Virus record (IMG/VR): IMGVR_UViG_3300048928_000145
Location: 1 to 48,683 of that record
Source: a virus
DNA: 48,683 nucleotides
Direction: 5' to 3' (one strand)
Positions 18,409 through 20,790 of this stretch are shown piece by piece. A program made the translations under genes and the position numbers. Under the pieces are notes generated by a model that was given only the letters and a program-made list of their open reading frames with translations, searched no databases and had not been told where the DNA came from. Every line of letters begins with the position of its first letter. Position 1 is the stretch's first letter.

Positions 18409-19106
18409 GCAAGCAACCGCCCCGCGGCATCCGCAACAACAACCCCGGCAACATTCGGCACGGGGACAACTGGCAAGGCCTGGCTACGGACTCGCGCACT
18501 CGCGACAAGGATTTCGCATCCTTTGTCTCGCCGGCGATGGGCATTCGCGCGCTGGCGGTCACGCTGGTGACGTACCGGGACAAGCACGGCCTGCGCACGG
18601 TCCAGGACATTATCCATCGCTGGGCGCCGCCGTCCGAAAACAAAACCGGCGCCTACGTGGCCGCCGTGGCGCGCAAGGTTGGCGTGACGCCGACCCAGCA
18701 GATCAACGTGCACGACTACGCCATCATGCGCCCGCTCGTGTCGGCCATCATCGCCCACGAGAACGGCACAGGTCCGCTCAAAACGGACAACACGTGGTAC
18801 GACGACGCCACTATCGACGAAGGCCTCAAACGGGCCGGAATCATGGGCGAGGCCAAAACCGTTATGGAGACGCCCGAAGGCAAAGCCGGCGCCGTAGCCG
18901 TGACGGCCGGCGGCGGGGCGGCCATCGTTGGCACCCTGGCCGACGTGGGACCGTCGATCGCTGGTCACGTGTCCGCCGCCAACGCAGCAACCAACGGTTT
19001 GCCGGTTTGGGTCAAAGTCCTGGTGGTGGCGCTTACCCTTGTCGCGGTCGGCGCCGGCGCGTACGTCATGCTGCAAAAGCGCAAGCAGCAAAAGGCCGAG
19101 GCATGA
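18405..19106 (+). CDS. Putative endolysin with C-terminal membrane anchor
   Basis: The product is 233 residues. Start ATG 18405 lies nine bases after AAGGA; ATG 18396 overlaps that site and is rejected. The N-terminal domain starts GIRNNNPGNIRHGDNWQGL and continues with FASFVSPAMGIRAL and IIHRWAPPSENKTGAYV, the pattern of phage peptidoglycan-degrading (lysozyme-like) proteins. The catalytic residue was not identified; Glu in APPSENKT is a candidate. After an Ala/Gly-rich linker, residues 204-226 (VWVKVLVVALTLVAVGAGAY) form a membrane helix followed by a Lys/Arg tail. A C-terminal anchor is unusual for a soluble endolysin. Confidence 0.75.
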   Translation: MSKQPPRGIRNNNPGNIRHGDNWQGLATDSRTRDKDFASFVSPAMGIRALAVTLVTYRDKHGLRTVQDIIHRWAPPSENKTGAYVAAVARKVGVTPTQQINVHDYAIMRPLVSAIIAHENGTGPLKTDNTWYDDATIDEGLKRAGIMGEAKTVMETPEGKAGAVAVTAGGGAAIVGTLADVGPSIAGHVSAANAATNGLPVWVKVLVVALTLVAVGAGAYVMLQKRKQQKAEA

Positions 19107-19372
19107 TTGCCGCCTTGTGGCTTCGCTTCAAAGGCTGGGCCATTGCGATCGGCGTGGCGCTGGCGACGGTGTACGTCGCTTGGCGCCGCGGCCGGTCCAG
19201 CGGCCTGGAGGATGCCCGGATCCAACGCGAAGCCGACCGGGCGCAACGCAACGCAGAGGCCGCAATCGAGATCCACGAGGCGGCAAAGGAGCGAAACCAT
19301 GTGGAAAGCGATATTGCTCTTGGGGGTGATCCTGTCGAGCGGTTGCGCGACGACTGGACCGCCCGCAACTGA
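19103..19372 (+). CDS. Rz-like inner-membrane spanin
   Basis: This 89-residue i-spanin starts on the ATGA overlap with the endolysin gene. One N-terminal membrane helix (LRFKGWAIAIGVALATVYVA) is followed by a periplasmic helical rod rich in Arg, Glu and Ala (EDARIQREADRAQRNAEAAI), the standard layout of Rz. Its 3' part contains the start of the o-spanin gene in another frame. Together they would fuse inner and outer membranes at the end of lysis. Confidence 0.8.
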   Translation: MIAALWLRFKGWAIAIGVALATVYVAWRRGRSSGLEDARIQREADRAQRNAEAAIEIHEAAKERNHVESDIALGGDPVERLRDDWTARN

Positions 19373-19523
19373 GGTTGTCACGGTTGACGTGTCATGTGTT
19401 CGGTTCAAGCCTATCTATATTCGCGCCGCCGACGTGATCACCAAGGAAACCGCCGCTGACCTACTGGCCCACAATGAAACGGGCGCTAAAAAATGCGGAT
19501 GGAAACGGACCAGCAAGAAATAA
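19299..19523 (+). CDS. Rz1-like outer-membrane lipoprotein spanin, start embedded in the Rz-like gene
   Basis: The product is 74 residues. ATG 19299 lies seven bases after AAAGGAG and inside the Rz-like gene, a different frame, with a 74-base overlap. MWKAILLLGVILSSGCATTG is a lipoprotein signal with lipobox LSSGC. The mature part is not proline-rich like lambda Rz1. It has the CVRFKPIYIRAADVITKETA...HNETGAKKCGW pattern seen in other phage Rz1-type proteins, with two more cysteines. Last gene of the late operon, ending just before a terminator. Confidence 0.8.
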   Translation: MWKAILLLGVILSSGCATTGPPATEVVTVDVSCVRFKPIYIRAADVITKETAADLLAHNETGAKKCGWKRTSKK

Positions 19524-19860: not shown

Positions 19861-20790
19861 CTAAAAAGTAGATTGCATCACTTCTTCGATGAAGACTTGC
19901 GCGTGCTGCGCGTTGATCGCGTTGCCGTAGGCGCGCAATCGTCCCACTCGGTTGGTAATCCCATCAGCCAACGGGAATGTGCCGGGTTCAACTGGCCGCC
20001 ACTTTCCATCCCGGCACAAGAGCCAGTCAGCAGCACGCCAGAAGCCGTTAACCGGGCCGGGCCATTCTTCGCCAGATGAACCGCCACGTCCGCTAACCCC
20101 ATCTGTGGGTCGGTCGGCTTCCGGCCCGATGTGATCGGCGGTCGAGGCTTGGCGTCGATGATCGTGGCGCTGGGAGTCGGCCAGCCCGCCAGCAGGTGCA
20201 CTACTGCATTGTTCAACTGTTCGCCCCTCTTTCCCCCGCCACGTTCCGTAAAGGATTTCGCGTTTGCGTGCCGGAAGTCCCGGGCCGCCGGCGTCGGCCA
20301 CGAAGTAGGTACGGTCGCGCTTATGGGGTGCGCCGACAGACGCGCTAGGGAACGCAACCGCTGCGGCCGAATAACCCAATCCTTCCATGTCATCGAATAC
20401 AAGGTCGAGCCAAGGCTCTGCGTCCTTGCTTGCAACCTGCTCGCCAAAGACGATTGGAGGGCGGCGCTGTTCGATGAGGTGGAACCATTCGGGCCATAAA
20501 TGCCGCTCGTCAGTAAACCCAGCGCCCGCGCCTGCCGCGCTGAAAGGTTGGCAAGGACAAGATCCGGTCCAGATGGGCCGCTCGTCGGCCCATCCAGCGC
20601 GGCGCAAGGCGAGGGACCAAACCCCGATTCCTGCGAAGAAATGGCACTGCTTGTAGTGTCGTAGGTCATTCGGCGTAACGTCCGATATGCTGCGTTCGTC
20701 CACGTCGCCCGGGGCAATGTGGCCGGCCGTGATCAGGTTGCGCAACCATTGGGCTGCGTACGGGTCGATTTCGTTGTAGTAGGCGGACAT
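19861..20790 (-). CDS. DNA cytosine-C5 methyltransferase
   Basis: This 309-residue enzyme transfers a methyl group from S-adenosylmethionine to C5 of cytosine in DNA. Motif I FFAGIG is at 51-56, motif [10 protein letters not shown] at 77-84 with the catalytic Cys in PCQ, a motif VI variant FGEQV at 115-119 (usual ENV has become EQV), motif [13 protein letters not shown] near 157-165, and motif [11 protein letters not shown] near 283-292. The span between VIII and X (about 168-282) is the target-recognition region. No restriction partner lies nearby, so it probably protects phage DNA from host restriction. Its start overlaps the previous stop (TAATG). It contains a second reading frame, listed separately. 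Confidence 0.9.
19878..20669 (-). CDS. Nested gene in a second frame of the methyltransferase gene
   Basis: An open frame of 263 codons from ATG 20669 (279 from a TTG at 20717) lies wholly inside the methyltransferase gene, one base downstream in phase. It is unlikely to be only a shadow, because its translation has motifs I recall from independently annotated phage proteins: [37 protein letters not shown] and [15 protein letters not shown], and near the end [20 protein letters not shown]. The WPTP and LNPxHSRWLMG motifs recur in methyltransferase-linked phage proteins. No strong ribosome-binding site is visible before either start, so translation may be coupled or weak. Function unknown. Confidence 0.6.

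Follow-up and report, generated by a model that had tools for sequence, protein, structure and literature searches.

A candidate two-subunit C5-cytosine DNA methyltransferase encoded by fully nested phage genes

The window studied here, a whole viral stretch of 48,683 nucleotides (IMG/VR virus record IMGVR_UViG_3300048928_000145, positions 1 to 48,683), carries a C5-cytosine methyltransferase gene with a second conserved reading frame inside it. Judging from comparisons with homologues, two fully nested genes at this locus very probably encode the subunits of a C5-cytosine DNA methyltransferase: the outer gene would supply the alpha subunit, and the nested gene a beta subunit bearing motif IX. 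The same comparisons show the frame of this putative beta subunit to be maintained as coding, to have its own start signals in the family, and to be homologous to the C-terminal half of C5 methyltransferases. To our knowledge, bacteria and phages seldom have two conserved proteins encoded in long, fully nested frames.

An earlier note on this DNA had described a 263-codon minus-strand frame inside the methyltransferase gene, one base out of phase. We found the frame exactly as claimed, together with the motifs quoted for it. It runs from an ATG at 20669 to a stop codon ending at 19878 and lies wholly within the 309-aa methyltransferase gene, on the same strand and shifted by one base (Table 1); an alternative TTG start would lengthen the nested protein from 263 to 279 aa. 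Each nested codon is made up of host positions 2 and 3 and the next position 1. The codon phase thus agrees with the note's statement that third positions of the host codons are second positions of the nested ones.

Table 1 Features of the nested methyltransferase locus (window coordinates)
Feature	Position	Strand	Evidence
Outer gene, C5-cytosine methyltransferase, 309 aa, putative alpha subunit; motifs I–VIII and X, without IX	19861..20790	-	PF00145 2e-15, phrog_363 1.7e-89
Nested gene, +1 frame, 263 aa from ATG, putative beta subunit	19878..20669	-	phrog_31772 1.1e-30, phrog_1008 2e-27; stop avoidance; host synonymous constraint
Likely nested start codon, ATG at host +121; alternative upstream TTG at 20717	20667..20669	-	ATG and Shine-Dalgarno enrichment in homologues
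Nested residues 67–113, helix and beta-hairpin	20331..20471	-	AF2 model, block pLDDT about 54–80
Nested WPTPAARD repeat motif, first of two	20277..20300	-	sequence
Nested WPTPSA repeat motif, second of two	20166..20183	-	sequence
Nested motif IX (16 residues)	19944..19991	-	pattern in 76/86 nested frames; hhalign to C5 methyltransferase C-terminal halves
Host motif X, RLRAYGNAI, outer frame only	19915..19941	-	85/86 host frames, 0/86 nested frames
Host motif IV, catalytic PCQ (PCQPFS)	20548..20556	-	PF00145 match 75–165
Outer-gene stretch with strongly lowered synonymous variation, about codons 78–288	19927..20559	-	sliding third-base identity

Identity of the outer and nested proteins

The outer protein matched PF00145 above the cut-off, as well as phrog_363. 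Its AF2 model (pLDDT 73.5) was predicted mostly above 85 over residues 1–170 and poorly in the variable region, and it matched the PDB entries of M.HhaI and M.HaeIII over ~170 residues. Over outer residues 1–70 (20580–20790, minus strand), the order of the motifs seems to be II, III, I, IV rather than I-II-III-IV; in hmmsearch alignments of very low score, residues 37–66 aligned with M.HhaI residues 3–32, and residues 3–15 with M.HhaI residues 36–48. A family-A DNA polymerase-like protein is encoded among the neighbours of the methyltransferase gene, and the gene of a ResIII-domain helicase lies 6 kb away. Of the flanking ORFs tested, none was recognised as a restriction enzyme, and the methyltransferase therefore probably serves to protect phage DNA from restriction.

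We compared the locus with 86 non-redundant homologous methyltransferase genes, whose outer proteins are below about 80% alike and whose GC content is 0.52–0.67. The earlier note had credited the host frame with all main methyltransferase motifs, but motif IX was present in none of the 86 outer frames. Its strict pattern was found instead in most of the nested frames (Table 1), and nine of the other ten contain close variants. Motif X, by the same count, is confined to the host frames. In 74 of the 76 genes measured, nested motif IX sits 15 codons 5' of host motif X.

Profile searches placed the nested protein in phrog_31772 and phrog_1008, the latter match covering residues 51–268 of the 279-aa form and positions 42–287 of 329 in the profile. 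The phrog_1008 profile also matched the in-frame C-terminal part of single-chain actinophage methyltransferases (L299, 4e-54), the second ORF of mycobacteriophages that have a pair of overlapping methyltransferase ORFs (L323, 1.4e-88), and the product of an internal gene of Paenibacillus phage Diva ('g49 internal gene', 1.1e-73). In hhalign comparisons, the nested profile A3 aligned both with the C-terminal halves of C5 methyltransferases (96.3%, E 1.9e-9) and with the mycobacteriophage-type second ORFs (96.6%, E 6.3e-10). The aligned part ends with the nested motif IX stretch, over LSARFSEWMMGWPEGW. In single-chain enzymes the same stretch stands some two dozen residues N-terminal to the GNGVV of motif X. 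This is the site of motif IX in C5 enzymes (HPRECARVMGYPDSY in M.HhaI), and it is on account of this position that we read the nested stretch as motif IX. Since hmmsearch of in-frame methyltransferases against PDB sequences aligned only motifs I–VIII, the identity of motif IX rests on the pattern, the position before motif X and family membership rather than on a structural alignment. Searches with Pfam and NCBIfam profiles returned no significant family for the nested protein; among PDB sequences, the nested profile had no match and the C-terminal-half profile A4 had only a chance match.

Modelled alone by AF2, the nested protein reached a mean pLDDT of 58.4, with moderate confidence only at the helix and hairpin listed in Table 1, and at this mean (58) the model was kept out of the fold search. 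Such a poor prediction of the lone protein would be weakly consistent with an obligate subunit. WPTP-type motifs occur in one to five copies in the homologues, their number scaling with length (r 0.74), which suggests that the repeats may have a role in target choice.

Given its homology to the C-terminal half of C5 methyltransferases, the half with the WPTP repeats and motif IX, the nested protein is most likely a second subunit. This supports the earlier note's proposal that the protein may act with, or regulate, the methyltransferase, and sharpens it. The protein could instead be real without being a subunit, its gene merely overlapping that of the methyltransferase: it might be a regulator, an inhibitor or an unrelated anti-restriction factor. 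Such a role would suit a protein whose fold was not recognised and whose additional N-terminal part, the helix and hairpin, is absent from classical C5 enzymes. We nevertheless regard it as unlikely, as the nested protein is homologous to methyltransferase C-terminal halves, has motif IX, and is always paired with an alpha protein that does not.

Expression and maintenance of the nested frame

Signals for an internal start are enriched in the family. To obtain a null expectation, synonymous codons were shuffled within each gene, retaining the outer protein and its codon usage. A nested-frame ATG is found at host codon 37 or 41 (+109 and/or +121) in 77 of the 86 genes, compared to 44.6 in the null (maximum 57), and anti-SD words of at least four bases precede the nested ATG in 61%, compared to 25%. 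In most homologues an ATG at one or both of these positions is present, often with AGGAG or GGAG upstream; in two loci (L008 and L060), GAAAGGAG is followed eight bases on by the ATG, inside the outer gene. The window copy has its ATG at the second of the two positions, with only a weak Shine-Dalgarno-like sequence, and N15, which has no early nested start, could begin at +277.

The enrichment of ATG and Shine-Dalgarno words at the nested 5' end argues against expression mainly by ribosomal frameshifting, which would yield an alpha-beta fusion (motifs I–VIII, then WPTP repeats and motif IX) besides the unshifted protein. Two observations are what frameshifting would lead one to expect: both frames are present in the same +1 phase at all 281 loci checked (viral contigs, phage records and bacterial genomes), and in some relatives the core and the C-terminal half share a single frame. 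The nested frame is, however, open and constrained well upstream, over motifs IV–VIII, where a shift near motif VIII would need no open frame at all, and we consider this mechanism very unlikely.

Openness of the nested frame far exceeds what the outer protein and its codon usage would produce. In the window gene, the open stretch of 284 codons was never equalled in 200 synonymous shuffles. Across the 86 genes, in a fixed region that starts at +136 and ends 90 bases short of the outer stop, the nested frame contains a single stop in 21,977 codons, whereas the shuffles contained 219–294 (about 256); the frame is fully open in 85 genes, compared to a shuffle mean of 3.9 and a maximum of 9. In the +2 frame of the same genes, stops are somewhat commoner than in the shuffles (990 against 851), presumably as a side effect of fixed third bases, and 5' of the nested start there is no stop avoidance (149 stops, 96 expected). 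Lower-GC phages provide the hardest test. Krischvirus Delraymugoa (GC3 0.40) has 232 open nested codons (null maximum 162), Bas75 has 227 (166), SBP 224 (173), ST1UNAM 223 (177), Vaitephage 262 (229) and Paenibacillus phage Diva 236 (173). The dual-coding claim of the earlier note could have failed on stops among the homologues; in the event, the nested frame was practically stop-free.

Synonymous variation in the outer gene tells a similar story. We measured third-base identity among sequences sharing an amino acid and compared it with the null for the 86 genes. Over host codons 2–77 identity is near the null, with an excess of 0.01–0.09. It rises sharply from about codon 78: the excess is 0.15–0.62 in most sliding windows over codons 78–288 and 0.3–0.6 over much of codons 82–288, and it is back to about 0 by codon 302. 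At P269 and P273, where four codons are possible, the third base is invariant (identity 1.00, null about 0.25). As the constraint on the outer gene is limited to the nested span, it tracks the nested frame. Over the first ~40 nested residues there is almost no added constraint, and the exact nested start is therefore uncertain; this part could be either a flexible leader or a sign of a later start in some members. The predicted fall in synonymous change was thus found, strongly over the nested frame and near background outside it, and together with the stop avoidance it supports long dual coding by two real proteins, as the earlier note had proposed.

An untranslated nested frame, held open by high GC and a conserved outer protein, its conservation a shadow of that protein, is accordingly hard to sustain, and we rate it as highly improbable. 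The genome is GC-rich, the nested frame does read across conserved outer motifs, and in some high-GC genes (L022 and L073, for example) openness was not significant when each gene was tested singly. But nulls preserving the outer protein and its codon usage fall far short of the observed openness, also at GC3 0.40–0.48; fully degenerate codons have a fixed third base; and the constraint does not extend beyond the nested span. These results refute such an explanation to the extent that sequence allows, and comparative evidence of this kind confirms the nested frame as a real conserved protein-coding frame rather than a GC artefact. Least probable of all is that the extra constraint acts at the level of RNA or DNA (structure or binding sites), which synonymous constraint by itself cannot tell from protein: stop avoidance is specific to one frame (1 stop in +1, 990 in +2), and homology to the methyltransferase family is seen at the protein level across gene arrangements.

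Frame arrangements among related methyltransferases

We took a census of reading frames at loci related to the methyltransferase of prophage GD91-2. In some of them (L299 and L302), frame 0 contains the LPTP repeats together with motifs IX and X. In L323 and further loci up to L350, the core ends near codon 175, and the LPTP repeats and motifs IX and X are in an overlapping +1 ORF; in phage Goose, gp80 and gp79, both annotated as DNA methyltransferase, overlap by 182 bases in the +1 phase. Loci of the window's kind (L361, L364 and L376) have the LPTP repeats and motif IX in +1 and motif X in frame 0, and three others (L298, L308 and L318) show mixed arrangements. None of these modules was seen in the +2 frame in this census. 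From these sequences, the C-terminal half seems to have changed frame more than once. All 281 loci checked above have both frames, and none of them has a free-standing nested homologue; the evidence for a free-standing form comes from the wider family, and not from the exact arrangement of the window. The nested protein itself was matched in 197 phage records at E<1e-5.

Annotations of these loci vary. For N15 and Vaitephage, only one frame is given. In Cylindrospermopsis phage Cr-LKS3 (L287, 1616–2353), the nested frame alone is annotated, as 'methyltransferase', and the outer frame is open and unannotated. In Escherichia phages K1ind2 and K1ind1 (L121 and L380), the nested ORF is labelled 'putative Mte8-like protein' and its neighbour 'C-specific methylase'; in the open-access literature Mte8 has one relevant mention, which does not explain where the name comes from. 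In Gordonia phage GordTnk2 (L294, 1288–2170), the core motifs are in a short frame-0 gene, which alone is annotated as methyltransferase, and the overlapping +1 frame contains LPTP, a motif IX-like SPVFVEWIMG and a motif X-like ILGNSVV.

Other departures were seen in single records. In Komagataeibacter phage phiKX1 (L004, 1398–2540), the outer frame is open but has no motif X (GNAI), whereas WPTP repeats and motif IX are retained in the nested frame; this is possibly a decaying alpha gene or a sequence error. One viral contig (L062) contains tandem methyltransferase homologues at 719–1219 and 1501–2529, the first match being partial. The window itself has an apparent second out-of-frame overlap at 18794–19523 (plus strand): a spanin-like pair in which an Rz-like frame, MIAALWLRFKGWAIAIGVALATVYVAWRR, is overlapped by an Rz1-like lipoprotein, MWKAILLLGVILSSGCATT.

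The proposed enzyme and known systems

In our model, the outer frame would be translated into alpha, which has the SAM-binding and catalytic motifs I–VIII, motif X and a variable region of its own. Beta would be made in the +1 frame from a start some 110–120 bases into the gene, and would consist of the N-terminal helix and hairpin, a variable WPTP array and motif IX. Motif IX is, in monomeric C5 enzymes, part of the small DNA-recognising domain. Beta would bind alpha and complete this domain, and the two together would methylate phage DNA at a specific sequence, most likely shielding it from host restriction. We infer translation of the nested frame, the heterodimer, its joint activity, a part of beta in target choice and the anti-restriction role from the patterns described above.

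More tentatively, with somewhat less than even confidence, we propose that the locus represents a large, so far unrecognised class of C5 methyltransferases in phages and prophages, with two mutually dependent, fully dual-coded subunits. The nested protein would be the specificity subunit; its WPTP array would expand and contract in one frame, and the variable region of the other frame would have to follow. In the course of evolution the C-terminal half would have switched between frame 0 and +1, and the one-chain form and the two-chain forms, overlapping or nested, would be the outcome.

A heterodimer with both halves coded by the same DNA would illustrate dual coding with unusual clarity, and its joint function could be tested. 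If the two-subunit reading is right, several hundred 'methyltransferase' annotations in phages and prophages are half-complete or name the wrong frame, and a codon-optimised outer gene would lose the inner subunit, giving false-negative recombinant tests. The one-chain, overlapping and nested forms would also provide a series in which to study the origin and fixation of overlapping genes. The type of mechanism is already known, from M.EcoHK31I. What seems to be new, with respect to open-access literature and annotations, is that a large family of phage and prophage enzymes has the nested split as a rule, that annotation usually gives one frame of it, at times the nested one alone, and that the C-terminal half has shifted frame repeatedly; the breadth of nested split methyltransferases in phages looks under-recognised.

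M.EcoHK31I (YGGCCR; Lee, Kam & Shaw 1995) consists of two polypeptides, the larger with motifs I–VIII and X and the predicted recognition domain, and the smaller with only motif IX (PMC3404938). The window proteins divide the motifs in the same way, alpha having I–VIII and X and beta only IX, and it is for this reason that we assign the outer and nested genes to the alpha and beta subunits of a putative heterodimer. The beta gene of the window family overlaps the alpha gene in another frame; for M.EcoHK31I too, the small-subunit gene reportedly lies inside the large one in another reading frame, and the small subunit is about 176 aa long. Unlike M.EcoHK31I, the window enzyme is an orphan of a phage, with no recognised restriction enzyme next to its gene, and its nested protein is 263 aa long with WPTP repeats. 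Plasmid searches for an M.EcoHK31I-like restriction-modification plasmid identified no candidate.

M.AquI (CYCGRG) is likewise made of alpha and beta polypeptides, split before motifs IX–X (PMC3404938). It resembles the window enzyme as a C5 methyltransferase divided between motifs VIII and IX into two polypeptides, but its motif X is in the small subunit, whereas that of the window is in the outer protein and in none of the 86 nested frames. The M.AquI arrangement matches the mycobacteriophage pairs (L323 and L377), not the window.

In PHROGs, the families to which the window proteins belong by profile match, phrog_363 for the outer protein and phrog_1008 and phrog_31772 for the nested one, are all labelled 'DNA methyltransferase'; outer and nested proteins are listed there as separate families with no sign of nesting. 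The annotators of Paenibacillus phage Diva (KP296791) did note a gene inside the cytosine methyltransferase gene: gp49 and the 'g49 internal gene' stand in the same +1 phase, and the internal product belongs to phrog_1008. Unlike in the window, the Diva outer protein is a C5 methyltransferase of classical motif order, encoded at lower GC.
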